Position numbers and translations under genes: made by a program. This document shows positions 5,456 through 40,534 of a stretch of 47,841 nucleotides of DNA, in pieces. The DNA comes from Chloroflexota bacterium. GTDB taxonomy: Bacteria; Chloroflexota; Limnocylindria; Limnocylindrales; CSP1-4. The stretch is taken from positions 52,485 to 100,325 of the forward strand of contig PMYK01000009.1 of NCBI GenBank assembly GCA_003171255.1, given 5' to 3'. The notes below the pieces were generated by a model. It searched no databases, was not told the DNA's origin, and saw only the letters and a program-made list of their open reading frames with translations. How positions within the stretch are numbered: position 1 is the stretch's first letter; each line of letters begins with the position of its first letter.

Positions 5456-5479
5456 CTACCTCCTAATGCGAGGTAGATG
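5455..5479. promoter_or_regulatory. Perfect inverted repeat ATCTACCTC-N7-GAGGTAGAT over the padR RBS/start (putative operator)
   Basis: 9-bp perfect arms at 5455-5463 and 5471-5479 read directly from sequence. Confidence 0.65.
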
Positions 5480-5836
5480 CTAGGGCTGGAGGCTCGCGCC
5501 TGTCAATACTGCGCGGGTCTTGCTAGGGCCGAGCTACTCAACTCATCTTCTGGGGCTGAACCGCCAGCCATCGGCGGACACCGCGGCACGCACTGCGGGC
5601 CACGGCGTCGGAGGCAGAACCTCGGGAGAAGCGTCCAGGACGGGTAGGTCGCAACTACCTGAATGGTCGGCGCGAGACGAATTGAACCTCCCACCAGGAG
5701 TGTCGAGCGAGCATGAGGTGGCGACAGTCGGGTTCGAGGCTGCGACAATCTTGTCGCCATGGGCGATGCTCAGGACGGGCATCGCCGTTCGATGGAGCGG
5801 CGGAGAACCGTGGCGGAAACTGGAGCCGGGCAGCCG

Positions 5837-23835: not shown

Positions 23836-25578
23836 ATGCCTGCCATGACTTTGGCCACCCCATCCCACGCCGATATTCGGGGCCGCCGGTCTCTCCGGAT
23901 GGCTCTTGTTATCTCGGCATCTGCCCCCGCGATCCTGCTTGCTGCGAGTGCGCTGGCATCGCTGGCCTACTTCTTCGCGTTCCTTCGGCCGGCCGCCGAC
24001 TGGCTGGAAGGCATTCTTCCGCTCGATCCGGCCGACGCGAATCCCGCGGTCGCGATCCTTGCCGCCGTCGGCTTCGCGGCCCTGACCGTCGGGCTCCTGC
24101 GCAGCAAGTCGGTCGCGTGGTGGCTCACCATTGCCACGCTTTCGGTCTCGCTGCTGGCCGAGGCACGGGTGTTCTCCCACCCACTCGTCATCATCATGGT
24201 CGGCGGCATGCTGGCGATTCTGCTGGCCGACCGACGCCGCTACTTCGTCGAGACCGACATCGGTTGGCGCCGGATCATCGTCGCTCTCGTCGTCGTGGGC
24301 GGCCTGGTCGTGGGCCTCGAAACGTCTCTGATCATCGCCACGACCGGGGACTGGCCGCGACCTCTGGCGGCCGTGAGCGACATCACCGCCGCCATCGGCA
24401 ATGCCCTCGGCCTGAGCGACGCCACTGCCAACGGAGTCCTCCATCAGACGAGCGTCGACGCGATCCTGGGCTTCCTGCTCGTGGCTGCGCGCCTGCCGAT
24501 CGTCCTTGCCGCTGTCGGCGTGCTCAGCCGCGTATCTGAGCCGCCGGCTGATCCCACTACCCGAGCTCGCGCTCGGGCGATTGCGGAGCGCTACGGCTGC
24601 GGCGCGCTCCTACCCTTCCAGCTGGGCGAGGACAAGCTCGTGTTCTCGCCGGCCGATGCCGACGGGCTGGTCGTGTACGGACTCGCTGGGCGGACAGCCG
24701 TTGTGCTGGGCGACCTGATCGGTCCAGTCGAATCCGCGCCCAAGGTCTTCGGAGATTTCCTGGCCAACTGCCGCAAGCGCGACCGCGTTCCGATCGTCTA
24801 CCAGGCCAGTTCGGCCGGGCGCGCGATGCTGATCGGAGCCGGCTTCCGGCTGTTCAAGGTGGGCGAGGAGGCCCTGATCGACCTCTCGACCTTCGACACC
24901 ACCGGCCCGAGGAGAGCGAACCTGCGCCACACGATCACCCGCTGCCGAAAGGACGGAGTGGAGTTCCGCTGGTATGCCCACGGGATCCCGGCCGAAGAGT
25001 CGGCCCTGCTCGACGACCTTGAATCGATCGACAAGATCTGGCGCAAGAAGGCCGGGCCCCAGATGACCTTTACTATCAGCCACTTCGATCGGGCCACCCT
25101 GAACGGGCAGCCTATCTCGGTGGCGGTGACCACCACGGGTCGAGCCCTGGCCTACACCACCTTCCGCCAGACCGGCGTCGATGGCGGCTGGGTTCTGGAT
25201 CTCATGCGCCGCGCGTCGGACGGGTCGCCGGGAGCCGTCGAGGCCTGCATCGCCGAAGCCGCCGTCGCATTCCGCGCCTCCGGCGCGAGGACGCTGTCGC
25301 TCGGGCTGGCGCCGCTTGCCGGCCTCGATCCGTCGAGCCCGGCGTTCGAGGAGCGGCTGCTCGCCACCGCCGGTCGGCTGGTTCGTCCGTGGTATGACGT
25401 CAGCGGCCTGTCGCGCTTCAAGAACAAGTTCGATCCGTACTGGATCCCGCGTTTCGGGGCCATTCGCCGCCGCCGAGACTTGATCGGTTTCGTGATCGGG
25501 CTGTTGCGAATTCATCTCGCCGGCGCATTCCATCTCCCAGGACGCCGTCACGCATCGAGGCAGGTCGCCGCCGCATGA
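23836..25578 (+). CDS. MprF-like aminoacyl-lipid synthase (DUF2156 / phosphatidylglycerol lysyltransferase C-terminal domain) with N-terminal TM region
   Basis: LPFQLGEDKLVFSPADADGLVVYGLAGRTAVVLGDLIGP..., WRKKAGPQMTFTISHF, YDVSGLSRFKNKFDPYWIPRF. Confidence 0.85.
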   Translation: MPAMTLATPSHADIRGRRSLRMALVISASAPAILLAASALASLAYFFAFLRPAADWLEGILPLDPADANPAVAILAAVGFAALTVGLLRSKSVAWWLTIATLSVSLLAEARVFSHPLVIIMVGGMLAILLADRRRYFVETDIGWRRIIVALVVVGGLVVGLETSLIIATTGDWPRPLAAVSDITAAIGNALGLSDATANGVLHQTSVDAILGFLLVAARLPIVLAAVGVLSRVSEPPADPTTRARARAIAERYGCGALLPFQLGEDKLVFSPADADGLVVYGLAGRTAVVLGDLIGPVESAPKVFGDFLANCRKRDRVPIVYQASSAGRAMLIGAGFRLFKVGEEALIDLSTFDTTGPRRANLRHTITRCRKDGVEFRWYAHGIPAEESALLDDLESIDKIWRKKAGPQMTFTISHFDRATLNGQPISVAVTTTGRALAYTTFRQTGVDGGWVLDLMRRASDGSPGAVEACIAEAAVAFRASGARTLSLGLAPLAGLDPSSPAFEERLLATAGRLVRPWYDVSGLSRFKNKFDPYWIPRFGAIRRRRDLIGFVIGLLRIHLAGAFHLPGRRHASRQVAAA

Positions 25579-27263
25579 ATCTGTCGCTCCCCAAGGTCGG
25601 CCTTCCACGGGTCGGCCGGCCCCACGTCGGGTCGTTTCCGGCTGCCCTGGTCAATTCGCTGCGACCTGGGAGACGCTTCGAGAAGTTCGCGTGGTTCCCG
25701 GTCGGGATAGGCGTTGCCGCCCTCGTCGTGCTCGTGGCGGTCTTCTCGGATGCCGTCTACCAGAGCGACGTGACGATGATCATCATGGGCTTCGATCAGG
25801 ATCGGGCTCAGCTGATTACCGCGCTCATCTTCGCCGCGGTGGCGGCCGCATCTGTCGGCCTGGTCGTCAATCGGGACGGCTTCGCCACGATGCTCGGCGC
25901 CTATGCGTTGGCCGCACTGTATGCCGAGACCTTCGTGGCCGAAACCCAGAAGGCAGCCGGGGCGATCGGAGCACAGGGCAGCTTCGACCTTGGCGGCTGG
26001 GTTCTCACCCTCATCACGCTGGTGGTCATCGGCGTTGTCTGCGCCTGGGCGGCAGCGACCATCGCGGTCGCGGTTCGGCCAGGGTTGATCGCCTCGGCCG
26101 TTGCCGTGCGCGACATGGTGAAGCTCCGTCGACCCAGCGTCACGCTCGCTCGCCGTCCTCTCGGGCTGGTGCTCATGGCTGCGCTGCTCGTCGTAACCGT
26201 CCCCGCCTTTGGCGACATGGTCAACTTCACCCCCGATACCCTGATGCTCAACGGCGACCGCGGCCCAGGGCTGGCGCACAACGAGTCGTTCCCCGACCAG
26301 AGCATCCCGCCGCTCGAGTCGGACACTCCGAGCCCGGCTCCGAACCCAACCTCGAGCGCCGGCTCGAGCGCGCAGATCGCCGCATCGTCAACGCCAACGC
26401 CCACCCCAATGATCACCGCGCAGCCGGGCTCCAAGCCCTGGCTTGCCTGGAAGCCGGCGGGCGGTTCGGGCGTTGTCACTACCGTTCAGATGAACGCGCC
26501 GTGGAAGGGCGGGTCCAAGTCGACCTCCCAGCTCGACATCTACACGCCGCCGGGCTATCAGGTCAACGGCTCTCGACGCTACCCGGTGCTATTCGAAGCG
26601 CCGACCGGTTTGCCTTTGTGGGGCCAGGGCACGGGTGTTATCGGCGCGCTCGACAGCCTGATCGATTCTGGGGAGATACCGGCCTCCATCGTCGTCTTCA
26701 TCGACTCCAGCGGTGCACCGCACCCCGACACGGAATGCGCCGACCACGTGGACGGTAGCCAGTGGTTCGAGACCTATATCACCACCACGGTGGTCAGCTA
26801 CGTCGACCGGCACTACCGCACGATCCAGGATCCTCGCGCCCGAGGCATCATGGGCATGTCGGCCGGTGGCTTCTGCGCGCCGATGCTCGCACTCCGACAC
26901 CCCGACCTGTACAGCATCTCGATCTCGTTCTCGGGCTACTTTTATGTGGGCGCCGGCGGCTCTACATCGGCCGAGCCGTTCGGAGCTCAGGGCTACGCCT
27001 ACAACCTGCATTCGCCTGGGGCGCTGGCGGTCAAGCTCGCCACGCAGGATCGTTCCAAGGTCTTCTTCGTGATCGTTGCCAACAAGGCCCAGGAGTTCTA
27101 CGGCGCGGCCGCGGAGAACTTCGAACAGACCCTGCGCGACACCGGCTACAAGTACCTGGCTGTGGACTCGCTGTACACGCACGGCTGGACCCAGGTCCGC
27201 TACGACACGCCGGCGGTCCTTGATGCCTGGGCCGCGCAGCTGGTGATCAACGGCATCTGGTAG
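25575..27263 (+). CDS. Membrane-anchored alpha/beta hydrolase, putative esterase family
   Basis: N-terminal TM segments, Pro/Ser/Thr linker, then PGYQVNGSRRYPVLFEAPTG...GIMGMSAGGFCAPMLALRHPDLYSISISFSGYF (GxSxG = GMSAGG); ATGA overlap with upstream gene. Confidence 0.82.
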   Translation: MNLSLPKVGLPRVGRPHVGSFPAALVNSLRPGRRFEKFAWFPVGIGVAALVVLVAVFSDAVYQSDVTMIIMGFDQDRAQLITALIFAAVAAASVGLVVNRDGFATMLGAYALAALYAETFVAETQKAAGAIGAQGSFDLGGWVLTLITLVVIGVVCAWAAATIAVAVRPGLIASAVAVRDMVKLRRPSVTLARRPLGLVLMAALLVVTVPAFGDMVNFTPDTLMLNGDRGPGLAHNESFPDQSIPPLESDTPSPAPNPTSSAGSSAQIAASSTPTPTPMITAQPGSKPWLAWKPAGGSGVVTTVQMNAPWKGGSKSTSQLDIYTPPGYQVNGSRRYPVLFEAPTGLPLWGQGTGVIGALDSLIDSGEIPASIVVFIDSSGAPHPDTECADHVDGSQWFETYITTTVVSYVDRHYRTIQDPRARGIMGMSAGGFCAPMLALRHPDLYSISISFSGYFYVGAGGSTSAEPFGAQGYAYNLHSPGALAVKLATQDRSKVFFVIVANKAQEFYGAAAENFEQTLRDTGYKYLAVDSLYTHGWTQVRYDTPAVLDAWAAQLVINGIW

Positions 27264-27331: not shown

Positions 27332-27370
27332 GCGGGAGTAGCTCAGTCGGTAGAGCGTCAGCCTTCCAAG
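27332..27370 (+). pseudogene. Partial tRNA-Gly: 5' half (acceptor 5' strand, D-arm, through the anticodon loop)
   Basis: gcgggagtagctcagtcggtagagcgtcagccttccaag identical to 32800-32838 of the intact tRNA-Gly, then diverges. Confidence 0.9.
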
Positions 27371-27435
27371 TCAGAATCTCGGAAGCGCGGTGCTCTCCTC
27401 GTGAAGTCCCCGCACGAATCGGGCATTTCAACTCC

Positions 27436-27466
27436 AATTAGGCTCTCTACCGGAGAGTGTCTAATT
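27436..27466. other. Stem-loop AATTAG-g-CTCTC-taccg-GAGAG-tgt-CTAATT
   Basis: Paired arms read directly (27436-27441/27461-27466 and 27443-27447/27453-27457). Confidence 0.65.
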
Positions 27467-27733
27467 CGGGTTCCAGAGTCTGATTTTCAACCGGTTTAGC
27501 AAGCCTTTCTGAAAGATTGGCGACGCCCTGGGCGGCCGGCACGTGGCGAATATGCGCGGTGCTAAATCGATACTGTTGGCCGATCAACGCGCGCCAGTTT
27601 TCGACCATCCTCAGGTGAGAACCCAGTCTGCGCTGGGCGTGGCGGAAGGCAGGCATTGCCCAGACGCCGTGCTGGCGTGGCAGCCACAGCCTCATAGCGC
27701 CCGGCTGAGGCTCTCGGGTTCGTGCGGTCGTGC

Positions 27734-28042
27734 TCACCATGACCGCGGTCGCGCAGCGGCCCGCTCCTGGGCCGTCAGACCGGGCGAGATGAACTGCCAG
27801 AACTGATACAGGATCACCGGCATAGCCGCTATCGCACCGACCGTGACAGCGATCTGGACGTCGATCATGAACGGCTCGGTGAGACCGAAGGCGACCAGGT
27901 ACTGACCCTTTGGGAGCGGGGCGATCAGGATGCGCACGATTGCGCCGGACAGGACGAAGCCCACCACTGATCCCGGCAGCAGCGCGAAGACCGAGATAAG
28001 AATGCGGTTGCGCAACTCGGTGAGATGTCCAGTCAGCGACAT
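27734..28042 (-). pseudogene. Truncated TatC (N-terminal part only)
   Basis: MSLTGHLTELRNRILISVFALLPGSVVGFVL...GLTEPFMIDVQIAVTVGAIAAMPVILYQFWQFISPGLTAQERAA then stops; most of the TatC length is missing. The ORF extends upstream to 28234. Confidence 0.75.
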
Positions 28043-28433
28043 CTCGGAGGCGGCGACCTGCGGGCGAGAAGACCGCCCCGTGCGCCAGAATGGGAGACGG
28101 CGCCCGAATGGCCGGCCGCGGCGGGTCGTCGAAGCAGGTCGGTCAGCCTCGGCCAATGGTGCAGTTCGGGTTTCGGACAATGGACCCACTATCAGCCCCA
28201 GGTCATGGCCCAGACTACATGCGCGCCACGGCACAATCCTAGGACGACCGGCGGTCCTAGACGGTCAGCATGGCCGTTTGGGCCAAATTCCGTCGTGACC
28301 GCAGCGATGGACCCCTCGGTTCGGGATGTGTGGGCGCTGGAGGTGGGTTCGAGCTAGAGTCGGACCCGCGTCCCGACGGGCGCCGTGATGGGATCTCGGC
28401 GACCAGGCGGGCAGGACGTTTCCTCGATGTGCT

Positions 28434-28883
28434 CTAGTCCTTAGCCCAGCTCTGGTAGCGCGGGGGCCATTCGTCGGCGTTGTCTCTGAGGCCCAAGACG
28501 GCCGCTTCGATGTCGAGGTCGAATAGCTCGTAGGTCTCGTCTACTTCGAAGTACCAGCTGCTTCCGACCTCGGCGCGGGCCGCCACATCGTCGATCAGTC
28601 GGGCGCGTCCTCGGATCGAGAACTCGCACGGCACAGGCGGGTTGATGTGGCTGTGGAGCGCGTACCGGCCGTCGCGCTCGAGATCTGTCCGCTTCGCCGA
28701 CTTGAGAATGAATGCGTACAGGCGCCCGCCGACGATCCCAACCCAGATCGGGTGGATGCGGGGCGGCTCGTCGCCCCGCACCGTCGCCAGCAAAGCCTCA
28801 CCCGTTTCGGTGCGATACAGGAGGCGCCGTCCCGCGGCTGCTAGAGTGGGATTCGAAGTCTCGAATTCGTCCCAAGTCGCCAT
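28434..28883 (-). CDS. Pyridoxamine 5'-phosphate oxidase (PPOX)-like FMN-binding protein
   Basis: ALLATVRGDEPPRIHPIWVGIVGGRLYAFILKSAKRTDLERDGRYALHSHINPPVPCEFSIRGRARLI. Confidence 0.75.
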   Translation of the reverse strand: MATWDEFETSNPTLAAAGRRLLYRTETGEALLATVRGDEPPRIHPIWVGIVGGRLYAFILKSAKRTDLERDGRYALHSHINPPVPCEFSIRGRARLIDDVAARAEVGSSWYFEVDETYELFDLDIEAAVLGLRDNADEWPPRYQSWAKD

Positions 28884-28925
28884 CGGTCGTCTCCTACTTG
28901 GATTGTTCGATGTGGTCCCGTCGGT

Positions 28926-29285
28926 CTAGCCGCGGAAGTCCGGCCGATCGAGAACGCGCAGCCACGACCCGTCGGGCTGGCGGCGGACCACCTGAGCCCT
29001 CGCGCCGGCCTCGTCTAGCGCGGGCGTCGCTGTCAGAGCGATGTCGCCCATGATCAGGGTAGGGAGTGGCGTCTCCAATCGGAAGTGGGGCTTTGCGGCG
29101 AGCATCTGCTCGTAGAGAGCCTTGATCGCGTCGTGGCCTACGGTCAACTTTCCGGGCGGGAACGCCACGGTCGCGTCGTGCTCGTAGAGGCTTGCGAGAC
29201 CTTCGGCGTCGCCGGCGTTGCCGAGTTCGACGAAGAGCCTGGTCAGGTCTTCGGGCTTGAGGGCCCGCTTGGTGTCGGTTGCCAT
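28926..29285 (-). CDS. NTF2/SnoaL-like protein
   Basis: DLTRLFVELGNAGDAEGLASLYEHDATVAFPPGKLTVGHDAIKALYEQMLAAKPHFRLE. Confidence 0.78.
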   Translation of the reverse strand: MATDTKRALKPEDLTRLFVELGNAGDAEGLASLYEHDATVAFPPGKLTVGHDAIKALYEQMLAAKPHFRLETPLPTLIMGDIALTATPALDEAGARAQVVRRQPDGSWLRVLDRPDFRG

Positions 29286-29411
29286 TTGATGTCTCCTTTG
29301 TCAAGTCGGGCGTCGCGTCCGTCTCGGCCTCGATCCCGTCTGAGTCCACTGTGCGGCACTGTCGGCCATAAGTCCAAGACATAGGTGTGCTCGGTGCTAG
29401 AGTGCCTGCTT

Positions 29412-30287
29412 ATGGAACTCAGACAGCTCGAATACTTCGTGACCGTGGCAGACGAAGCCAGTTTCACCAGAGCGGCCGAGAAGTTGCACGTCGCCCAACC
29501 GGGCGTCAGCGCGCAGATTCGCCAGCTTGAGCGTGAACTCGGGCAGGAGCTCTTCGACCGATCGGGTCGAACTGTTCGCGTCACCGAGGTCGGGGCGGCC
29601 GTGCTTGGCTACGCCCGCGATGCGCTCGGCGCGGCTTCCGGGGCACGACTCGCGGTCGACGAATTCACGGGGCTCATCCGGGGCCGGGTGGCGGTGGGGA
29701 TGGTTATCGCCTGCTCGTCCTTTGACCTTGCCGACTTGCTCGCGGGTTTCCATGGCGACTACCCGGCAGTGGAGATCGCGCTGTCGGAAGCCAACTCGGA
29801 CGAGCTTATCGCGCGACTTCTATCCGGTCAGCTGGACCTCGCGTATATCGCCCTCAGTGGAGCCGCGCCGGCCGGCCTCGAACTGCTCGAGATCGCCGAC
29901 GAGGCGATTGTCGCCGGGGTCAACACGGACGACGCGCTGGCGACATGTCCGACTTTGCCGCTCGGGGCGCTGGCGGATCGCACGCTCTTGAGCCTGCCGC
30001 GCGGGACCGGCATCCGGTCCATCTTCGATGATGCGTGCGCCAGGATCGGCTTGCAGCCGCGCATCGCGCTGGAGGCCAGCAACCTCGGCATCCTGGCGCG
30101 ACTCGCGAGTCTCGGCCTCGGAGTGGCAATCGTGCCCGAATCGGTGGCAGCGGCCACGGCCGGCCTGCACGCGATCGAGATCATCGATCCCCGGATGCGC
30201 GGCAAGGTAGCCCTGGCCTGGCGCACCGAAGGCCCGATCGGCCCGGCGGCGCAAGCGCTTATCCGGCGGGCGAGAGGGCAGGAATAG
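29412..30287 (+). CDS. LysR family transcriptional regulator
   Basis: MELRQLEYFVTVADEASFTRAAEKLHVAQPGVSAQIRQLERELGQELFDRSGRTVRVTEVG. Confidence 0.92.
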   Translation: MELRQLEYFVTVADEASFTRAAEKLHVAQPGVSAQIRQLERELGQELFDRSGRTVRVTEVGAAVLGYARDALGAASGARLAVDEFTGLIRGRVAVGMVIACSSFDLADLLAGFHGDYPAVEIALSEANSDELIARLLSGQLDLAYIALSGAAPAGLELLEIADEAIVAGVNTDDALATCPTLPLGALADRTLLSLPRGTGIRSIFDDACARIGLQPRIALEASNLGILARLASLGLGVAIVPESVAAATAGLHAIEIIDPRMRGKVALAWRTEGPIGPAAQALIRRARGQE

Positions 30288-30363
30288 GGAGCACCAGCTT
30301 CGGGTAGTGGAACGCCCCGCGAGTCGGGTAGAGCACCCGCCTCTGACGGCGTAGCGTTGCGCC

Positions 30364-30840
30364 ATGAGCCGAGAAGTCGAGGACCTGAACCGGCGCCTAC
30401 TGCGCGCCCGCGACGCCATGGACCGCGCCTACGCCGAGCCCCTCGACACCCGGGCCGTGGCCGCGGTCGCCTACATCTCCGAGGCGCATTTCATCCGCAC
30501 CTTCCGCGTCGTCTTCGGGGAGACGCCGCACCGTTACCTACAGCGGCGCCGAGTGGAGCGCTCAATGTTCCTACTCCGCGAGACCGATCGCAGCGTCACC
30601 GATGTCTGCCTCGACGTCGGGTTCAACAGCTTGGGGAGCTTCAGTCGCACGTTTCGGGAGATCGTCGGCGAGGCGCCGTCGGAATACCGGCTTCGGAATG
30701 GGCCGATGCTCGCGCCCAACTGCTACCAGATGGCGGCGACTCGGCCGTCGGTGGCGGCCACTCGGCCGTTGGTGGCCGAGGCTGCGCCGGCGACTCAATC
30801 GAGCAGTTTTGGAGAAGCCACCGCGGCGGCCGCTCCCTAG
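30364..30840 (+). CDS. AraC family transcriptional regulator
   Basis: AVAAVAYISEAHFIRTFRVVFGETPHRYLQRRRVERSMFLLRETDRSVTDVCLDVGFNSLGSFSRTFREIVGEAPSEYR. Confidence 0.9.
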   Translation: MSREVEDLNRRLLRARDAMDRAYAEPLDTRAVAAVAYISEAHFIRTFRVVFGETPHRYLQRRRVERSMFLLRETDRSVTDVCLDVGFNSLGSFSRTFREIVGEAPSEYRLRNGPMLAPNCYQMAATRPSVAATRPLVAEAAPATQSSSFGEATAAAAP

Positions 30841-30883
30841 CATCAGGTGAGATCCCCAACGCAGGGCGAAGAGGAAACAGGCG

Positions 30884-31312
30884 ATGATCAAGCTCAACGT
30901 CACCTCCGTCATGGTCCTCGACCAAGAAGAGGCTCTCGACTTCTACGTCAACAAGCTCGGGCTGGAGAAGGCGCAGGACATCCATCAGGGTCTCTTCCGC
31001 TGGCTGACGGTCCGCGTCCCCGGCAACCCCGAGATCGAGATCTTCCTGCAGGAGCCGGGGCCGCCGGTCCAGGACGAAGCCACCGCCGCCCAGCTCCGTG
31101 AACTGATCGCGAAGGGCGCGATGGGCGGGCTCGTCTTCCAGACGGACGACGCCAGGAGTCTGTACGAGACACTCAAGGCGCGCGGCGTCACCGACTTCAC
31201 TCAGGAGCCCATCGAGCACGCCTACGGCACCGACATGGGCATCCGCGACCCGTTCGGCAACGCCATCCGGATCCTCCAGCCGGCCAAGTTCGGTCAGGCG
31301 GCGACAGCGTGA
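30884..31312 (+). CDS. VOC (glyoxalase/bleomycin resistance) family protein
   Basis: VTSVMVLDQEEALDFYVNKLGLEKAQDI...GIRDPFGNAIRILQP. Confidence 0.88.
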   Translation: MIKLNVTSVMVLDQEEALDFYVNKLGLEKAQDIHQGLFRWLTVRVPGNPEIEIFLQEPGPPVQDEATAAQLRELIAKGAMGGLVFQTDDARSLYETLKARGVTDFTQEPIEHAYGTDMGIRDPFGNAIRILQPAKFGQAATA

Positions 31313-31378
31313 TCGGTCCGGGTTCCAAGAGCCCGACCGGCCGAGGCCGTGGAGAGCGTTGATGAGAGGAAACCTCCA

Positions 31379-31855
31379 ATGAACGACACGCAGATGTCCG
31401 CCAAGACCACCGCCGCGATCGACGAGACGGTCGATGCCTTCACCGCCGAGGAGCGAGCGGCGGTGAAGGAACGCGCCAAGGAGCTGAAGGCGGCCGGCGG
31501 CCGCGGCCCGCGCGCGGGCAAGGCGGACGGGGAAAGCGAAGTGCTCGCCAAGATCGCCGAGATGGCGGAACCGGATCGCGTCATGGCCGAGCGGCTCCAT
31601 GCGATCGTCAAAGCCAGCGCGCCAGTCCTCTCGCCGAAACTCTGGTACGGGATGCCCGCGTATGCCAGGGACGGCAACGTCGTCTGCTTCTTCCAGGACG
31701 CGCGGAAGTTCAAGTCGAGGTACGCAACGCTCGGATTCAGCGACAAGGCGAACCTCGATGAAGGCGCCATGTGGCCGAGTGCCTTCGCTCTGACGAAGTT
31801 GACCGCCGCCGACGAGGCAAGGATCGGCGCCCTCGTGAAGAAAGCGGCGAGCTGA
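31379..31855 (+). CDS. DUF1801-like protein
   Basis: [48 protein letters not shown]; start ATG 31379. Confidence 0.7.
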
Positions 31856-31900
31856 GGCTGCGCTCGCCAGTGAGCCCCGTACTAATAGGCGGAGACGAAC

Positions 31901-32137
31901 ATGAAAACAATGACATGCAAACAGATGGGTGGACCTTGCGAAGCCCCATTCCACGGGAACACGGCTGATGAGGTCATAAAGGCCCAAGACAGCCATCTGA
32001 AAGAAATGGTCGCAACGGGTGACGAGACGCACAAGAGTGCCCGGAAGAGCATGCAAGACAGGTGGAGACATCCGGTGTCGGGAATGAAGTGGTACATGAA
32101 CACCAAGAAGGCCTTTGCTGCTCTTCCCGAAAACTGA
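31901..32137 (+). CDS. DUF1059-like small protein
   Basis: MKTMTCKQMGGPCEAPFHGNTADEVIKAQDSHLKEM...; GGCGGAGACGAAC upstream. Confidence 0.65.
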   Translation: MKTMTCKQMGGPCEAPFHGNTADEVIKAQDSHLKEMVATGDETHKSARKSMQDRWRHPVSGMKWYMNTKKAFAALPEN

Positions 32138-32226
32138 TCCGGTCATCGAGGGCCGCTGTCCTCTCGGGCCGACGCCCGTGACTCCTACCTGGTCCTGCAC
32201 CCATCACATCAATGAGGAGTCACAAC

Positions 32227-32688
32227 ATGATGACCATGCCCGCCAGGACTTCGAAGCAACGCAAGCAGGACGTTCTGGACCGACTCGAGCGTGATGTCGA
32301 CGCATGGGTGGCGACGGCCGACAAGGTAAGCGGGACGCCGTATCTCGTGCCACTGTCGTTCCTCTGGGACGGCATCACCCTGTTGCTGGCCACCCCTGCT
32401 TCCAGCCCGACCGGCCGCAACCTCCAGGCTAGCAACACGGTTCGTCTCGGCATCGGCCCAACCCGCGACGTCGTCCTGATCGAGGCAACCGTGTGCGTGC
32501 TCGCGATCCGCGAGATCTCTCAGCAGGTCGGCGACGCGTTTGCGGTCAAGACTGGCTTCGACCCGCGCCAGGAAACCAGCACGTACCTCTACTTCCACGT
32601 TACCCCCCAGCGGCTCCAGGCCTGGCGCGAGGCGAACGAGCTCGATGGCCGCGACCTGATGCGAGATGGCAGGTGGCTCGTCGAGTGA
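32227..32688 (+). CDS. Pyridoxamine 5'-phosphate oxidase-like FMN-binding protein
   Basis: DVDAWVATADKVSGTPYLVPLSFLWDGITLLLATPASSPTGRNLQASNTVRLGIGPTRDVVLIEA; GAGGAG RBS 5' of ATG 32227. Confidence 0.75.
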   Translation: MMTMPARTSKQRKQDVLDRLERDVDAWVATADKVSGTPYLVPLSFLWDGITLLLATPASSPTGRNLQASNTVRLGIGPTRDVVLIEATVCVLAIREISQQVGDAFAVKTGFDPRQETSTYLYFHVTPQRLQAWREANELDGRDLMRDGRWLVE

Positions 32689-32799
32689 AGTCCCCCGTCG
32701 TTTGAGCGGCATCTGACGCCCGCCGATGGTGTGCAAGATGGTACGCTGCGAACCTTGCCCGGCCGACAACCGTGCGGTAGCGTTGGAGCCGGAGACCGG

Positions 32800-32875
32800 G
32801 CGGGAGTAGCTCAGTCGGTAGAGCGTCAGCCTTCCAAGCTGAATGTCGCGGGTTCGAGACCCGTCTCCCGCTCCA
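32800..32875 (+). tRNA. tRNA-Gly (anticodon TCC, 32833-32835), CCA encoded
   Basis: GCGGGAG/CTCCCGC acceptor, AGCTCAGTCGGTAGAGC D-arm, TCAGC-CTTCCAA-GCTGA anticodon arm, GCGGGTTCGAGACCCGT T-arm, T discriminator, CCA. Confidence 0.97.
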
Positions 32876-32901
32876 GATCCCATTATTGGCGAGCACGCCG
32901 A

Positions 32902-35415
32902 CTACCGGAGTTGGAAGAGTTCGGCCGAGCCCAGAGTCGCCACCTCGTCCCCGCCCATTACCAGCACGCGTCCGTTGCCCAGCGCGACCGCCGTGCAGGC
33001 CTCCCGAGCGTGGCCCATGGAGGCGGTCGGCAGCGAGCGGCCCGTCTCGGGATCGTAGATCTGGACGGAGGCCTGAGGGACCTCGTACGACGACAGGCCC
33101 CAGCGGCTATGAAGTTCGCCACCGCCGGCAAAGAGGACACGGCCGTCCGGAAGTGGAGCGAAGCAGGCCCCGTCGTACTTGGTCGGGGAACCCTTCTCGA
33201 CGAATGTGTCAGTCGCTGGATCGAACAAGTAGGCAGACCCGGAGTTGCCGATTACCAGGACCTTGCCATCGGGCAGAGATACGGCGCCGCGTACGTCGTG
33301 AGGCCTCGTCGACGAGGCTATGGGCGCGAACCTGGCCGAGCCGGGGTCGTACACCTCGGCCGAGGCGGAGTCGTTGCCTCCCACGACCAGCACCCGGCCG
33401 TCGTGCAGGAGCGTTGCGGTAAGGCCCGCCCTCGGGGCGTTCATAGACCCGGCAAGGCTGAACTCGCCAGTCGTTGGGTCGTAGATCTCCGCCGACTGCA
33501 GGAGATGGAGGTTCTGGTCCTCGCCGCCCATCACGAGCACGCGACCATCATTCAGCGCGACCGCGGCTTGCAGATTCCTGGCGGACGCCATCGGGCTCGT
33601 CGTGCTGGGTGTGCCGGAACGAGGATCGAACAGCTCTGGAGCCAACTTATCGCGGCCGATCACCAGAACTCGGCCGTCAGGCAGAAGGGTGGCCGTCAGA
33701 ACGCCGCCGGTTCCGTCCAGCGGGGTGGCGGACCTAAACATGCCGGTTGTCGGATCATAGACCTCGACTGACATGGCCCATGTCCCGACTGGGCCGCTGC
33801 TATCCCCGCCCATGATGACGACCCTTCCATCGGCCAGCAACAAGGCCGTAGGATCGGTCCGACCGTGGACCATGTGACCGGTGTGGGTGAATAGCCCAGG
33901 CACAGTGGAGGTGCTGGCTAGGTTGACCAGCGCGAGGCCGCTCCCCACACCGATCATGAGGCACAGGCCGAGGATGAGGACCCTGCTCCGCGTGGAGGCC
34001 ATGTCCAGCGAGGGACGCCGCTGTCTCTCTCTGGCCGAACGAACGCGCGGGGGCCGCGTCCCAAACCATAGCCACGCGATCACCACCACCAGGAGAACGG
34101 CTAGGCAGGCCAAGGCGACCAGCAACAGGTTGGGACCGCCGCTGGATGACGAGCCGCTCGAACCGCCGGCGGATGGGGGTGCGCTGGAGCCAAGCGCGGC
34201 CGTTGACGAGGGACTCGGGGCGGCAACCGTGGCTGGAGCGGAGGGCTGCGGCGTTGCTATGGGCCCCAGACCCGGGACCTCGAACGGCATGTCTCTGCCG
34301 TAGGGGTCGCCAAGGCCAAGCACAAACGTCCCGCCCCAGCACATCACAGCGCCGTTATCTCGAACGGCGCACGTGTGGTTCTCCCCAGCCGCCAACGCCG
34401 TGACGGCACCGCCCAACCCGCCGACCCTCGCCGGGGCCATGCCGTAACCCCAGCACCATACAGTCCCACCGGAGGCGAGGGCGCACGTATGCGTGCCACC
34501 GGCAGAGATGGCGCTTACACCGGCCAAACCCGCGGTGACCACTGGGGAGTGCTTGATTCCGCCAGTGCCGTCGCCGAGCTGTCCCCAGCATGCCACGCTC
34601 CCAGCCGAGACTAGGGCGCAGGTGTGCGCTGTGCCGGCCGAGATGGCGGTAGCACCGGCCAAGCCGGAGACGGCAACGGGAACAAGCCGGTAGGGGTAAT
34701 CAGTGTCGCTGCCGAGCTGACCCGACTGGTTGACGCCCCAGCACATCACGCTGCCGCTCGAGACGAGAGCGCAGGTGTGATAGTTACCCGCCGCGATGCT
34801 CGTGACCCCAGTCAGGTCGGAGACGGCGACAGGGGTGGTGCTGTCGGTCGAGCTGCCGTTGCCAAGCTCGTAGCCGTTACCCCAGCACTTGACCGAACCG
34901 TCCGCAACCAGGGCGCAGGTGTGATTCATGCCTGCGGCGATGGCGGTCACGTTACTCAAGCCGGAGACGGCTACAGGTGAGGAGCTGCCCTTACCAGGCC
35001 CGAGGTTGTCACCCCAGCACCTGGCAGTCCCATCGGCGAGGATGGCGCAAGCATGGTCACCGCCGGCAGATATGGCAGCCACGCCGCTCAAGTCCGAGAC
35101 GGCGACAGGGGTGGTGCTGAGCGTCGAGCTGCCATTGCCAAGCTCACCCCATTGATTGTCGCCCCAGCAAAACACGGTCCCACCCGAGACGAGAGCGCAC
35201 GTGAAGTCGCTACCGGAGGCGATGACTGGAGCGGTCGGCACGTCAGAGGCTTGGACAACCGAGGTTGCGACGCCGCCGATCGAGCGAGCCGATAGCAGTA
35301 CTGCCAGAACCAACGAGTTAAGGAAGGCCCTTCGAGCGCGATGCGCATCCCGGAAGCGTTGCGGGCTGGCACTGCCAGCCGTGGTTACGACCCTATTCGT
35401 GCGGCCACGTGTCAT
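32902..35415 (-). CDS. Two-propeller membrane protein: RCC1-like repeats, TM hairpin, Kelch-like repeats
   Basis: Repeated HTCALVSxGSVxCWG...G units (RCC1-like), TM segments LLLVALACLAVLLVVVIAWLWF and VLILGLCLMIGVGSGLALV, then repeated LLxDGRVLVxGG...EVYDPxTG units (Kelch-like). Confidence 0.85.
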   Translation of the reverse strand: MTRGRTNRVVTTAGSASPQRFRDAHRARRAFLNSLVLAVLLSARSIGGVATSVVQASDVPTAPVIASGSDFTCALVSGGTVFCWGDNQWGELGNGSSTLSTTPVAVSDLSGVAAISAGGDHACAILADGTARCWGDNLGPGKGSSSPVAVSGLSNVTAIAAGMNHTCALVADGSVKCWGNGYELGNGSSTDSTTPVAVSDLTGVTSIAAGNYHTCALVSSGSVMCWGVNQSGQLGSDTDYPYRLVPVAVSGLAGATAISAGTAHTCALVSAGSVACWGQLGDGTGGIKHSPVVTAGLAGVSAISAGGTHTCALASGGTVWCWGYGMAPARVGGLGGAVTALAAGENHTCAVRDNGAVMCWGGTFVLGLGDPYGRDMPFEVPGLGPIATPQPSAPATVAAPSPSSTAALGSSAPPSAGGSSGSSSSGGPNLLLVALACLAVLLVVVIAWLWFGTRPPRVRSARERQRRPSLDMASTRSRVLILGLCLMIGVGSGLALVNLASTSTVPGLFTHTGHMVHGRTDPTALLLADGRVVIMGGDSSGPVGTWAMSVEVYDPTTGMFRSATPLDGTGGVLTATLLPDGRVLVIGRDKLAPELFDPRSGTPSTTSPMASARNLQAAVALNDGRVLVMGGEDQNLHLLQSAEIYDPTTGEFSLAGSMNAPRAGLTATLLHDGRVLVVGGNDSASAEVYDPGSARFAPIASSTRPHDVRGAVSLPDGKVLVIGNSGSAYLFDPATDTFVEKGSPTKYDGACFAPLPDGRVLFAGGGELHSRWGLSSYEVPQASVQIYDPETGRSLPTASMGHAREACTAVALGNGRVLVMGGDEVATLGSAELFQLR

Positions 35416-35657
35416 AGCACGTTGACCATCTCGCGGTTCGCCGTCATGACTCCCCTCCCGCTGAATGAAGCCCCGGACGAAACGTTACTGGCCCCGCTGA
35501 TCAACTAGCACTCTGCCGGTTGACACGCGCGCTGTCTGACAGTCGACGGCAGATTGGCGCGTTCGAGCCAGGAGCGGAACTCGGACATCCCAAGCTGCCT
35601 AACTTTGCCCACCGCCGGTGTGAGGCGCGACCCGGATACCAGTCGTCCAGCGGTCCA

Positions 35658-35780
35658 CGACGACACGATAACTGGACATGAAATGCTCGGCTTCCCACGA
35701 GGGGTGCGACTGCGCATAGTCGCTTAGGCCTTCCAAGCTGAATGTCGCGGGTTCGAGACCCGTCTCCCGCTCCAGATCCC
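35658..35780 (+). repeat. R1: conserved R sequence joined to a 53-bp copy of the tRNA-Gly 3' half plus flank
   Basis: cgacgacacgataactggacatgaaatgctcgg...ttag followed by gccttccaagctgaatgtcgcgggttcgagacccgtctcccgctccagatccc (35728-35780), identical to 32829-32881. Confidence 0.93.
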
Positions 35781-35799
35781 TTTTCGCGTTTGGCAGCGA

Positions 35800-35940
35800 C
35801 CACCACCAGCCCATCTATTCCCGCGAAGTTGTCCGGATTGCACGTGTAGAGGGGCAGCCCGTTCGCCAGGGCAACCCAGCGATCGTCGCGCCATATGCCC
35901 GGCGTTCGCCTTCCGGCCCGAATCTACGCAACGATGGCGT
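35800..35940 (-). pseudogene. Decayed vapC 3'-end fragment (paralogous to 37417-37848)
   Basis: cagcccatctattcccgcgaagttgtccggattgcacgtgtagaggggcagcccgttcgccagggcaac... closely matches 37465-37535; reading frame disrupted. Confidence 0.85.
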
Positions 35941-35943
35941 TGC

Positions 35944-35974
35944 TTGACAAGCACACTTGATCTAGTAGTATTAG
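35944..35974 (+). promoter_or_regulatory. Putative promoter (TTGACA, TAGTAT) with near-palindrome CTAGTA-G-TATTAG just upstream of the gntR start
   Basis: TTGACA at 35944-35949, TAGTAT at 35966-35971 (16-bp spacer), near-palindrome at 35962-35974, ATG at 35978. Confidence 0.5.
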
Positions 35975-35977
35975 CTC

Positions 35978-36328
35978 ATGTTATTCGAGATCGACACCCG
36001 GAGTTCCGTTCCCATCTACAACCAGATCGCGGCTTGCGTTCGCCGTGCGCTTGTGGCTGGGACGATCCAGCCGGGAGCGAAGCTGCCTCCTTCGCGCGAC
36101 CTGGCGCGGGAACTCGACGTCAACATGCACACCGTCCAGCGGGCATACGGGCAGCTGCGTGACGAGGGGCTGCTCGAGTTGCGACAGGGCCGAGGAGCGA
36201 TCGTGGTGCCAGGCGACGTGGTGCCCTCCGCGCGCCTCAATGGGCTGGTACGCGATCTCCTCGCCGAGGCAGCCGAACAGGGCATCACAACAGGCGAACT
36301 CACCAAGTTGATGGAGTCGATGCGATGA
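35978..36328 (+). CDS. GntR family regulator, YtrA-like short form
   Basis: SSVPIYNQIAACVRRALVAGTIQPGAKLPPSRDLARELDVNMHTVQRAYGQLRDEGLLELRQGRGAIV. Confidence 0.9.
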   Translation: MLFEIDTRSSVPIYNQIAACVRRALVAGTIQPGAKLPPSRDLARELDVNMHTVQRAYGQLRDEGLLELRQGRGAIVVPGDVVPSARLNGLVRDLLAEAAEQGITTGELTKLMESMR

Positions 36329-37278
36329 ACACAGCGCTTTCGGTACATCGGGCCCGAACCGTCAACTGGCCGCTGATCGGCCTCGTTGCCGCGCACCTGG
36401 CAGTAATCCTGCCCGCGGTATTGCTGATCCCGATCTTCGCCGCCAGACTCCCGGCCGATGCCGTCAAGGTTGAGTCATATTCGATCGTCACGGACATTGT
36501 TTTCGTCGGCATCTTCCTGCTTCGGATCGCGTTGCGGAGCGACGACCGCGCCGGCTACGCACTCGAGACCGTGCTGCCTCTGACCCTGGGCTACGCCGGG
36601 ACGGGGTTCTTCGTAATCGCAGGCACCGTGCTTATCAATCTCGATGCCCGCAACTATCAAATGATCTTCGAGGGTCCCGCAGGACTTGCATTCACGGTGT
36701 TCGGCCTATTCCTCTCGTTTGGAGTAGGGCGCTACCTGGGGTCGGCAGCTTCGATCAGGCGTCTCCGGCGGGAAGCGGCCTCGAGCCAGCGCATCGCCTG
36801 GCTGACCGAGGTGAGCGCCGACCGGTCCTGGCGCCTCGCGTTTGGGACGGTCGTAGGGATCCCTTATGCCATCCTGATTGCCCTCTTCCTGCTGCTGCCC
36901 CCTGGCTTTCCTGCGGTCGCCGCGTTGCTGGCAGCGACCTGGGCGGCGTTCGTTCTGGCGGGCCAGCAGGCGTCGGTTTTCATCACCGATGCCGGAATCC
37001 GGGTCAGCGGCCGGTGGCTGCTGGGGGCCCCGAGCTGGAGCCTCGCCCTGGCTCGGGTTGCATCGGCGCAGGCCATCACTGCCCAGCCTCGAACGATGCT
37101 ACTTTCATGGGACCCTGGCCTGTGCATCCTCCGCAGTGGGCCCGCCCTAGAGGTGAGGTCCACGACTGGCCGTTCGTACGTGGTGAGCCTGCCCGAGGCA
37201 CATGAGGCCGCCTCAGTTCTCGACCGCCTCATTGAGCACCGGAAACAACTGCAGGACGTCCTAAGGACGACACGATAA
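36325..37278 (+). CDS. Multi-TM membrane protein coupled to the GntR gene
   Basis: ATGA overlap; several hydrophobic segments; C-terminal soluble domain (ALEVRSTTGRSYVVSLPEAHEAASVLDRL). Confidence 0.75.
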   Translation: MNTALSVHRARTVNWPLIGLVAAHLAVILPAVLLIPIFAARLPADAVKVESYSIVTDIVFVGIFLLRIALRSDDRAGYALETVLPLTLGYAGTGFFVIAGTVLINLDARNYQMIFEGPAGLAFTVFGLFLSFGVGRYLGSAASIRRLRREAASSQRIAWLTEVSADRSWRLAFGTVVGIPYAILIALFLLLPPGFPAVAALLAATWAAFVLAGQQASVFITDAGIRVSGRWLLGAPSWSLALARVASAQAITAQPRTMLLSWDPGLCILRSGPALEVRSTTGRSYVVSLPEAHEAASVLDRLIEHRKQLQDVLRTTR

Positions 37279-37390
37279 CTGGACACGAAATGCTCGCCCT
37301 CTCACGGGGGGCGCCACACCGCATGGAGGTCTAGGCCTTCCAAGCTGAATGTCGCGGGTTCGAGACCCGTCTCCCGCTCCAAATCCCATT
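37266..37390 (+). repeat. R2: second copy of R joined to the tRNA-Gly 3' half
   Basis: gacgacacgataactggacacgaaatgctcg... then gccttccaagctgaatgtcgcgggttcgagacccgtctcccgctcca (37335-37381) and aaatcccatt. Confidence 0.93.
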
Positions 37391-37416
37391 TCAAGCGCCC
37401 GATGCAGGTTTCCGCG

Positions 37417-37848
37417 TCAATCAGCGGCTGGCGCACGGTCCGGATGCGTGACCGCGACGACCACAAGCCCATCTATCCCCGCGAAGTCGTCCGGATTGCA
37501 CGTGTAGAGGGGCAGCCCGTTCGCCAGGGCAACCGCAGCGATCATCGCGTCGTAGGCCCGTGCGTTCGCCTTCCGGCCCGAGCGTCGAAGCGACGCGGCA
37601 ACCTGGCCAAATGCTCGGGCCGCCTCGACATCGAACGGAAGAGGATCGAAGTCGGCTTCTGCCTGCTGGAGATGTGCAAGGCGGGCGGCTCTTTCGGACT
37701 CGTCCGCAGCAACGAGCGGTCCGACCGACAGCTCTGCCAGCGTGATGGTCGAGATCAACGGCTGGTCGGGGAGTGCGGTGGCGTCCCGGAGCCGGGGCAA
37801 CAGGATGAGTGTGTTCGTGTCAAGCAGGCCCGTCTTGACATCACTCAC
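37417..37848 (-). CDS. VapC-like PIN-domain toxin
   Basis: VSDVKTGLLDTNTLILLPRL...ISTITLAELSVG...ARAYDAMIAAVALANGLPLYTCNPDDFAGIDGLVVVAV; GTG start overlapping antitoxin stop. Confidence 0.88.
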   Translation of the reverse strand: MSDVKTGLLDTNTLILLPRLRDATALPDQPLISTITLAELSVGPLVAADESERAARLAHLQQAEADFDPLPFDVEAARAFGQVAASLRRSGRKANARAYDAMIAAVALANGLPLYTCNPDDFAGIDGLVVVAVTHPDRAPAAD

Positions 37849-38081
37849 AGGCGTGGATCGACGGTAGCGTCGAGGTCGCCGCGCAGGGCCGCGCCGTCCA
37901 CGGGAGGTAGTCTGCGCCATCGCGCCAAGAGCATCGACGCGCTCGCTCCACGTGGCCGAACGGGCCGAAGCTCGGCCACCGGCTTGCCGTCTCGGGTGAC
38001 GACCAAACGCTCACCTGCGGCAACGCGATCGACCACATCGCCGCCATGGTTGCGTAGATCGCGGATCGTCACTTCGGCCAT
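37845..38081 (-). CDS. Phd/YefM-type antitoxin
   Basis: MAEVTIRDLRNHGGDVVDRVAAGERLVVTRDGKPVAELRPV; 4-bp overlap with vapC. Confidence 0.88.
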   Translation of the reverse strand: MAEVTIRDLRNHGGDVVDRVAAGERLVVTRDGKPVAELRPVRPRGASASMLLARWRRLPPVDGAALRGDLDATVDPRL

Positions 38082-38218
38082 CGGGCCATGGTATCACGGG
38101 TGATACCTGTCGCGAAACGAGCGATTTGCCGAGGAGCGACACGGCGTATCCGTGGAGCCATCGGTGCGACCAACAGGCTGGGCGAAGGCGCCACAGCGAC
38201 GGGACGCGGGCCGATCGG

Positions 38219-38434
38219 TTACTGCATCCGTCGGTTCGCACGCATGAGCAGAACCGCCAGAGCAACAATGATCAAGGCCGCCAGAGCTTCGAGCGGGACC
38301 ATACTCGGGAGCACGGCCGATTGGTCCACGTTGTCGTGATACAGAACCTCGGCGCCTCGGATGGCGACGAGGATCGCAATTGCGAGCGCGATGAGCGAGA
38401 GGATAGTTCGCCCCGGGTGGGCTGCACCGAGCAT
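38219..38434 (-). CDS. Small two-TM membrane protein
   Basis: MLGAAHPGRTILSLIALAIAILVAIRGAEVLYHDNVDQSAVLPSMVPLEALAALIIVALAVLLMRANRRMQ with purine-rich RBS upstream. Confidence 0.55.
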   Translation of the reverse strand: MLGAAHPGRTILSLIALAIAILVAIRGAEVLYHDNVDQSAVLPSMVPLEALAALIIVALAVLLMRANRRMQ

Positions 38435-38590
38435 CTCCCGTTCCCTCCCGCATTTGCGTCGATGTTTGTCTGACTCTGATCCGGGCCGCCCGGTTCGCTT
38501 CGAGATGATGGCAGTGGTTTCAGGCGCCAATAGGCTGAGCCTAGATTCTGCCCCAGCCGTCTCTCGTCCTGGGGTTGCCGGAAGGCCAAT

Positions 38591-38667
38591 CGACGACACG
38601 ATAACTGGACACGAAATGCTCGGGCTTCCACGAGGCGTGCCACAGCGCTTACGCTCCTAGCCCTTCC
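38591..38667 (+). repeat. R3: third copy of R, ending at CCTTCC without a tRNA 3' half
   Basis: cgacgacacgataactggacacgaaatgctcgggcttccacgag...ctagcccttcc, then unrelated sequence. Confidence 0.88.
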
Positions 38668-38674
38668 GGGCTAG
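38657..38674. other. Hairpin CTAGCCC-TTCC-GGGCTAG
   Basis: Perfect 7-bp arms; overlaps the stop codon of the 38671-39456 gene. Confidence 0.7.
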
Positions 38675-39637: not shown

Positions 39638-40534
39638 TTACGCCGCGAGCCCGGCGGCCAGGGTGAGTGCGCTCCGGGCTCGGTTCAGGATGTAGAGGTG
39701 ATATCCCGGCGCTCCACGGGCCAGGAGGTCGCGGATCTGGGTGAGCGCCCAATCGATGCCCAGGGCTTCGATGATCTCGGGCTGGTCTCCGGCGGCCTCG
39801 ATGCGCGTGATCAGTCGGTCCGGCAGCGAGGCGCCGCACATGCTGGTGATCCGTTTGACTTGCTTGAGCGAGAGCACAGGCATGATGCCTGGGACGATGG
39901 GCACGCTGATCCCTGCTGTGCGGCATCGATCTACGAAGCGGTAGTAGGCCTCGTTGTCGAAGAACAGCTGCGTGGTGATGAATGATGCCCCGGCGTCAAC
40001 CTTGCGCCGTAGGTTGACGAGATCGGCTTCGAACGATGGCGCCTCGGGGTGCTTCTCCGGATAGCCGGCCACACCCAGGCAGAGATCGGGGTGCAGTTCC
40101 TTCAGCAGGGCGACGACATCGCAGCCAAAGCGCAGGTCGTCCTTGAACGCGGTCGCCGCGGGCAAGCCGTTGGGCAGGTCGCCCCGCAGGGCCATGATGT
40201 TGCGGATTCCCCGCGCGTAGTGCGCCTGTGCGACGGCCGAAACCTCCGCCCGGGTGTGGTTGACCGCGGTCAGATGCGGCATGACCGTGAAGCCGAATTC
40301 ATACCTGAGAAGGGCGGACACCTGGGCGGTTCGTTCCTGCGTGCTGCCCCCCGCGCCGTAGGTTACCGACACGAAATCCGGTCGGATCACTTGCAATGCC
40401 GCCGCGGTCTGGCGCAACGCCTCGACGCCCGCCTCGTCCTTGGGCGGGAAGAACTCGAGCGAGCGCAGCGGACGCCGCTGCTCGAACAGTTCGGATATGG
40501 GCCGGTCTGACTGCATTGACGTGGCGGCTGACAC
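39638..40534 (-). CDS. metF: Methylenetetrahydrofolate reductase
   Basis: LEFFPPKDEAGVEALRQTAAALQVIRPDFVSVTYGAGGSTQERT...HLTAVNHTRAEV...NIMALRGDLP...FITTQLFFDNEAYYRFVDRC. Confidence 0.93.
   Translation of the reverse strand: MSAATSMQSDRPISELFEQRRPLRSLEFFPPKDEAGVEALRQTAAALQVIRPDFVSVTYGAGGSTQERTAQVSALLRYEFGFTVMPHLTAVNHTRAEVSAVAQAHYARGIRNIMALRGDLPNGLPAATAFKDDLRFGCDVVALLKELHPDLCLGVAGYPEKHPEAPSFEADLVNLRRKVDAGASFITTQLFFDNEAYYRFVDRCRTAGISVPIVPGIMPVLSLKQVKRITSMCGASLPDRLITRIEAAGDQPEIIEALGIDWALTQIRDLLARGAPGYHLYILNRARSALTLAAGLAA

Follow-up and report, generated by a model that had tools for sequence, protein, structure and literature searches.

How do small DNA units that lack an integrase gene come to be stacked, one after another, at a single tRNA gene? 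This question is raised by a 47,841-nt stretch of DNA (hereafter the window; GCA_003171255.1, contig PMYK01000009.1, positions 52,485-100,325 of the forward strand) from a Chloroflexota bacterium placed by GTDB in Limnocylindrales CSP1-4. Its genome (G000) is 2.56 Mb in size and belongs to a genus of uncultured peatland Chloroflexota, and the relatives compared were metagenome-assembled genomes (MAGs) labelled Chloroflexi, isolates fen_10xx. In the window, an intact tRNA-Gly(TCC) gene is followed by three consecutive units, which an earlier note on this DNA had described as cassettes without a visible integrase; indeed, we found no integrase anywhere on the contig. Our results suggest that the locus is very probably a tRNA-centred island, produced as elements with standard ends integrated site-specifically, time after time, into the anticodon loop and accreted in tandem, with an integrase acting in trans.

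The layout proposed in the earlier note (an intact tRNA, three units, their junction positions, a CCTTCC core and a missing third 3' half) agreed with ARAGORN and Rfam predictions and with motif and repeat matching (Table 1). The units end at positions 35728, 37335 and 38661 and are 2899, 1607 and 1326 bp long. Each is closed by a right arm (R) that begins GACACGATAACTGGACA and starts exactly 67 bp ahead of CCTTCC (at 35662, 37269 and 38595). A 45-nt tRNA 3' half without mismatches to tRNA-Gly is repeated at 35729 and 37336, and the third junction keeps CCTTCC alone, its 3' half being gone. The cargo was also as claimed: an RCC1 and Kelch protein; a GntR regulator and a membrane protein together with a vapC remnant; and an antitoxin, a PIN toxin and a small membrane protein. 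Unit 2 has a 94% identical counterpart in L078, and its gntR-membrane protein cargo is also found in another setting in L074 (93%); at the genome level, this cargo is 93-94% identical in G004 and G008, where the settings differ. The vapBC part of unit 3 has 84-90% identical copies in five other genomes. As in unit 2, other cargo genes stop on the TAA of R (GACACGATAA; L069:6819, L073:3408, L078:3061, L082:4749 and L083:8168), as though an R arm had become attached to the gene's 3' end. In a codon-scored count, however, no more than 6 of 62 R sites were of this kind, and therefore no special mechanism is claimed. A defence role of the cassettes was set aside as well, as PADLOC made no call for any of ten cargo proteins.

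R does not behave as a generic dispersed repeat. The host genome contains four copies, all at unit ends, and a reversed control pattern had no match in this genome or in any of the 121 genomes searched, so that an origin of R from chance repeats was rejected. R was carried by 18 of the 20 genus-mates but by a single one of 52 family members from other genera, and all 48 more distant genomes lacked it. In the genus-mates it lay mostly at tRNA junctions carrying other cargo, including Fic, histidine phosphatase, MarR with MFS, CRP-like, glycosidase, GNAT, TetR, TauE and VapBC genes, among others. A tRNA core followed R at 48 of the 63 sites examined, with a spacing of exactly 67 bp in 39 of these 48, and the best-conserved left arm (L) reads ATTTCGTGCTTGGCACGACACTCAGCC. 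Thirty-two R-closed units had a median length of 1.63 kb (range 0.55-15 kb); only two of them (L070 and L105) contained an integrase of the family described below, whereas L085 holds a 30-residue remnant. Arrays in the genus reach four or five units. At the orthologous site of G018 (L070), which has the same upstream genes, an integrase unit and a glyoxalase-like unit replace the cargo of the window, and alternative cargo was also found at the same tRNA in other genomes. In addition, the tRNA-Gly(TCC) 3' half was single copy in most sister genera (34 of the 38 other-genus family genomes with a match). Given the alternative cargo, the single-copy sites and the linkage of R to tRNA, the locus is neither a fixed arrangement shared by all relatives nor a set of generic repeats, the two outcomes that the earlier note had named as fatal to its interpretation. 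Plasmid records matched the conserved tRNA stretch alone, and none included R. In three contigs (L254:7240-7255, L075 near 8340 and L085 near 2555), a further sequence, ACGATCGTTCCATGGTG, comes directly after either a truncated 3' half or an L arm; it is possibly the end of another mobile element.

An element with R and a tyrosine integrase, a combination that the earlier note had suggested looking for, lies at a different tRNA of the same genome. The fourth R copy (G000:C28:49942) is followed by the 3' half of tRNA-Arg(TCT) as a 46-bp 3'-half repeat; the intact tRNA-Arg(TCT) lies 35 kb away, and a tyrosine integrase gene (PF00589) begins 77 bp after it. This element is a 35-kb defence island (restriction, CBASS-type and ApeA) containing McrBC, two SMODS proteins, a type I restriction system, ApeA, a second integrase, RadC, SSB and two HTH_17 proteins. 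Its left arm after tRNA-Arg, TTTCGTG..GGGACGACAC, matches the cassette left arm of relatives at the same offset. As both its arms match those of the cassettes, the small units share the ends of a large integrase-bearing element located at another tRNA in the same genome. Integrases were also found at tRNA-Gly(TCC) itself in relatives. In L077 (G016), a 5' half of this tRNA is followed by an assembly gap, a cassette-type left arm, an integrase gene and, 7.4 kb on, R with a 3' half, and L070 has an integrase unit at the orthologous site. The C28, L070 and L077 integrases form one family with matching or related ends. Members of this family adjoin tRNA-Arg(TCT), Gly(TCC), Gly(CCC), Leu, Thr, Val, Ala and Arg(TCG), and the catalytic residues R, K, H, R, W and Y were invariant in nine aligned integrases.

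Based on these ends, we propose that an excised 3'-side unit, presumably circular, would carry an attachment site (attP) composed of the R arm (whose GACACGATAACTGG begins at a distance of 67 bp from the core), an overlap of 7 bp within the anticodon loop, a replacement 3' half and an L arm marked by CGTGC..GCACGACACTCAGCC. Recombination between attP and the intact tRNA gene would restore the tRNA and displace older units, together with the old 3' half, outward. A tyrosine integrase from larger elements with the same or related ends would act in trans on the integrase-less units, and some vehicle would carry them between cells; helper sources may be the tRNA-Arg(TCT) island in this genome and the elements at tRNA-Gly(TCC) in relatives. 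Since their ends are shared with integrase-bearing elements, mobilization of the integrase-less units in trans is plausible. The same scheme bears on the order of arrival. If new units enter at the tRNA, the tRNA-proximal unit should never be the most widely shared one, and this was the case in seven arrays (borderline rank tests, p = 0.033; rank-weighted, p = 0.048). A Fisher test of shared against unshared units was not significant on its own (p = 0.08). Thus, the view of the earlier note that the newest unit lies nearest the tRNA receives modest support, from the rank tests (p about 0.03-0.05) but not from the Fisher test.

The earlier note was right about stacked integrase-less units at one tRNA but overlooked, besides the tRNA-Arg(TCT) ends and the likely immobility of the window's units (see below), a mirror-image system on the 5' side, represented in the window by the unit at 27332-32829. 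Here a lone tRNA 5' half starts 69 bp past an esterase gene and 5.5 kb upstream of the intact tRNA, and non-tRNA sequence follows it. In G016 (L077) the tRNA lies directly after the esterase, whereas in the window the 5'-half repeat occupies this place; therefore, this genome appears to have gained a 5.5-kb insertion upstream of the tRNA, as a 5'-side unit. Its genes were named by Pfam (TatC and PNPOx) or by reading open reading frames (ORFs; the rest), and positions 30297-32150 are also found upstream of the tRNA in L070 (84% identity).

Twenty-two tRNA 5' halves that lack a 3' half were read across the genus. In 5'-side units at tRNA-Gly(CCC), the integrase gene is located just upstream of the tRNA and transcribed away from it, and G020 contains a tandem pair of 5'-half repeats. 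Two classes of 5' arm were distinguished. When the class A arm was compared with the reverse-complemented R arm, both being equally far from the loop, 37 identities were counted, against 20.9 +/- 2.1 in shuffled sequences (0 of 2000 shuffles). In class B, to which the arm in the window belongs, TCCTCGTGA stands at the same place as in class A, and CCAATTA lies 10 bp (one helical turn) further out. In a phylogenetic tree, all 3'-side integrases formed one clade (support 99/97), with the 5'-side integrases outside it. On the 5' side, related integrases would then work in mirror image: the elements would bring a tRNA 5' half and an inverted R-like arm, with the integrase gene placed just upstream of the tRNA and pointing away. 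Related integrases can probably act in opposite polarity because the stem that encloses the loop is palindromic.

Some additional observations concern this side. The host genome has a 5'-side element at tRNA-Gly(CCC) on another contig (G000:C13; L026:6363; L234:4727-5594 and 5849-5924), and an R-like GACACGATAACTGG downstream on that contig (L234:6557) may end a small degenerate 3'-side unit. In G002, a lone tRNA-Gly 5' half precedes the intact tRNA by 36 kb (G002:C26:116480 and 152524), which may point to a large 5'-side island in that genome. A genome of another genus (G056:C73; L255) has an integrase of the family immediately before tRNA-Gly(TCC) and divergent from it; thus, the 5'-side system may not be confined to the present genus. 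Directly upstream of tRNA-Gly(TCC), L066, L069, L090, L099 and L109 have a conserved block, ACAGTTATACGCTCT..GAGCGTGGTGCTC..TTGTTAGGCT; perhaps it combines the inner arm of 5'-side elements with the tRNA promoter.

Taken further, the data could describe a two-sided tRNA-centred system, in which side-specific related integrases use mirror-image sites at a near-palindromic anticodon stem-loop and integrase-less cassettes of one or a few genes are collected and exchanged in trans, that is, a functional analogue of integrons evolved from tRNA-targeting integrases, whose cassettes form when an R arm joins the 3' end of a gene. This wider reading is offered tentatively, as somewhat short of probable.

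The genes flanking the island in the host recur in relatives. The esterase homologue ends about 90 bp before the intact tRNA-Gly in L077, and a lone tRNA 5'-half repeat lies about 95 bp past it in L244 and L248; at the genome level, the esterase is followed by a lone 5' half in G011 and G012. On the right, MTHFR homologues are found near the distal end of the array in several relatives (L066, L069, L072 and L083); an MTHFR-based genome search gave no tRNA site in L144, L146, L147, L148 or L164.

Table 1. Features of the tRNA-Gly(TCC) island and its flanks, in window coordinates
Feature	Position	Strand	Evidence or remark
Esterase-like gene, host left flank, abutting the tRNA-Gly site	25575-27263	+	Homologues near the site in relatives
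Repeated tRNA-Gly(TCC) 5' half and core CCTTCCAAG, outer end of 5'-side unit	27332-27370	+	Exact 39-nt match, no 3' half after it
Class B arm of 5'-side unit, TCCTCGTGA	27371-27450	+	Common to L069, L243, L244, L245, L248 and L249
Body of 5'-side unit: TatC fragment, LysR-like, AraC-like, VOC-like, DUF1801-like, PNPOx; no integrase	27371-32829	+	
Intact tRNA-Gly(TCC), target gene	32800-32875	+	Single call by both ARAGORN and Rfam
Anticodon loop CTTCCAA of tRNA-Gly(TCC)	32831-32837	+	
3'-side unit 1 (2.9 kb)	32830-35728	+	Limits: tRNA core, and R with repeated 3' half
RCC1 and Kelch two-propeller protein, unit 1 cargo	32902-35415	-	Pfam PF13540, PF25390, PF13964
R arm of unit 1	35662-35728	+	67 bp before core
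Repeated tRNA 3' half, unit 1/unit 2 junction	35729-35773	+	0 mismatches
3'-side unit 2 (1.6 kb)	35729-37335	+	R arm and 3'-half junctions
vapC remnant, unit 2	35796-35921	-	89% identical to vapC of L084 and L093
GntR-family regulator, unit 2	35978-36328	+	PF00392
Membrane protein, unit 2; stop codon is the TAA within the R arm	36325-37278	+	ORF ends at GACACGATAA
R arm of unit 2	37269-37335	+	Junction 93% identical to R junction of L077 integrase-bearing element
Repeated tRNA 3' half, unit 2/unit 3 junction	37336-37380	+	0 mismatches
3'-side unit 3 (1.3 kb)	37336-38661	+	R arm and CCTTCC at distal end
VapC-type PIN toxin, unit 3	37417-37920	-	PF01850
Phd/YefM-type antitoxin, unit 3	37845-38081	-	PF02604
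Small membrane protein, unit 3	38219-38599	-	ORF only, no Pfam match
R arm of unit 3, then CCTTCC, 3' half lost	38595-38667	+	R motif 0 mismatches
MTHFR gene, right flank	39638-40534	-	PF02219

Several points weigh against repeated integration in trans. The three left arms in the window lack the conserved L motif present in many relatives and look decayed; thus, the array may be fixed, and its own units may no longer move. The left arm of the L070 integrase element differs from that of the cassettes. The trans mobilization proposed in the earlier note is plausible, as the C28, L070 and L077 integrases belong to a single family and the ends of their elements match or are related, but no full-length integrase of this family was found in G002 and G011, which have long arrays. 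Moreover, cassette identities (84-94%) are similar to those of the MTHFR gene (86-91%), and therefore exchange need not have been recent. On the 5' side, no inner arm could be recognized beside the tRNA in the window, and a gapless alignment of the class B arm with the inverted R arm was not significant. It should also be noted that the data consist of assembled genomes only, all of them fragmented MAGs, in which several array contigs break at repeats and some junctions contain Ns.

Some of these points are expected if the units arrived with their own integrases and later lost them, leaving dead remnants that moved at most in cis, as in the accretion of cis-mobilizable elements (CIMEs), for which decay is the usual course given (PMC5704250). 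The degenerate left arms, the absent 3' half of unit 3, the vapC remnant of unit 2, the integrase remnant in L085 and an integrase split between frames at G000:C13 all fit such a history, which we regard as a serious possibility, if less than an even one. It sits poorly with the fact that most R-closed units are short and integrase-less, are filled by one or a few complete genes and have conserved R arms, and with the recurrence of the same integrase-less cargo in differing array settings (gntR-membrane protein, window and L074; histidine phosphatase, L066 and L094). Homologous recombination would be another way to shuffle and delete units, with an integrase responsible for the founding insertions only: each unit lies between repeats of some 120 bp with roughly 76-93% identity, which could allow RecA-mediated exchange or deletion. 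We consider it improbable as the main process, because it leaves unexplained the standard ends of one-gene units, the like units at tRNA-Arg(TCT) with the 3' half of that tRNA, and the mirror-image 5'-side units. Finally, ordinary prophages or phage satellites stacked at the tRNA and reduced over time are slightly less likely still: a satellite-like contig of a viral collection (L254, IMG/VR; 4390-5570 and 7250-7345) does carry an R arm and part of a 3' half by a DNA primase, a ParB-methyltransferase and two tandem terminase small subunits, but viral contigs do not contain the exact 3'-half junction pattern, the cassettes hold accessory genes only, and the 35-kb C28 element encodes restriction, CBASS-type, ApeA, RadC and SSB functions, with no capsid, terminase or conjugation gene among the proteins tested. 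Packaging or replication genes such as phage satellites carry were found neither in the window units nor among the C28 proteins tested.

Repeated trans-acting integration into one tRNA also has to be set beside known systems. No description of it was found in the literature searched for integrase-less tRNA cassette arrays, with subscription journals mostly outside coverage. Already known are tandem tRNA/tmRNA islands, integrase-less CIMEs, Dehalococcoides ssrA islands, and the tRNA-repeat cassettes of Actinomarinales and Methylopumilus; what is new here is the genus-wide set of standard ends common to small units and helpers, the use of these ends at two different tRNAs, and a mirror system on both sides of the tRNA whose integrases group by side. 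The tRNA/tmRNA islands catalogued by Islander (PMC4383910) likewise involve a tyrosine integrase, a crossover in the anticodon loop, a restored tRNA and a displaced fragment. The window has an intact tRNA at one end and same-orientation fragments at the other (two full 3'-half repeats and one 5'-half repeat), though its units have no tyrosine integrase of their own. That catalogue comprises 3919 islands, of which 159 have a 5' fragment, and 4 tandems of three or more; an integrase and at least 2 kb were required (PMC4383910), so most of the present units would be filtered out. Unlike the islands of that catalogue, the present arrays extend to four or five units and occupy either side of a single tRNA.

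CIMEs related to ICESt1 also lack an integrase, keep their att ends and accrete in tandem at one site (PMC5704250). The window units resemble them in having no integrase or transfer genes, in their retained att ends (with degenerate left arms) and in their neighbouring elements. However, CIMEs are seen as decayed remnants of integrative and conjugative or integrative and mobilizable elements (PMC5704250), whereas small units with standard att sites form the majority across this genus and occupy two tRNA targets. The units scanned contained no genes of such parent elements, and an integrase remnant was seen only in L085. The Dehalococcoides ssrA islands (PMC3146451), also from Chloroflexota, are tandem and have 3'-end repeats, and 15 of them lack an integration module, but they target the T-loop of tmRNA, use a Ccr-like serine recombinase and occur downstream of ssrA only (PMC3146451); the target here is the anticodon loop of tRNA-Gly or tRNA-Arg, and the integrase belongs to PF00589.

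The additive flexible islands of Actinomarinales and Methylopumilus (PMC7771536, PMC10872708) are similar in their small cassettes at tRNAs with partial-tRNA repeats, and our locus, like these, combines a constant location with variable cassettes (G018 and others) and tRNA-fragment repeats; the parts of these reports that we consulted describe no shared end arms, helper elements or mirror 5'-side system. Tycheposons, according to the consulted part of PMC10872708, are tRNA-located elements of 4-200 kb with their own tyrosine recombinase, whereas the window units are 1.3-2.9 kb long and have none. For the 5'-side elements, the nearest parallel is the pTN3-type integrases, whose attB is a tRNA gene 5' half; the consulted part of the source (PMC8371274) calls these archaeal enzymes unique in archaea and describes no paired 3'-side system. 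In effect the arrays resemble integrons, as cassettes of one or a few genes are stacked beside a fixed attachment site, with the integrase outside the cassette. However, their sites consist of a tRNA core and arm sequences rather than folded attC/attI, and the phage-integrase-type enzymes sit in helper elements. The earlier note had already distinguished the array from integron attC cassettes, and we agree on the basis of junction structure (a tRNA half and a 67-bp arm), no attC-specific model having been run.

In this genus, small integrase-less units account for most units at the tRNA-Gly(TCC) site. As searches for genomic islands generally require an integrase and set a lower limit on length, small integrase-less tRNA units go uncounted. 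With their common ends and many natural variants, the arrays make both the movement of integrase-less units and the birth of cassettes directly testable. The mirror-image pair, in turn, represents one integrase family exploiting a tRNA from either side, in which the 5'-side elements must also supply upstream sequence for the tRNA.

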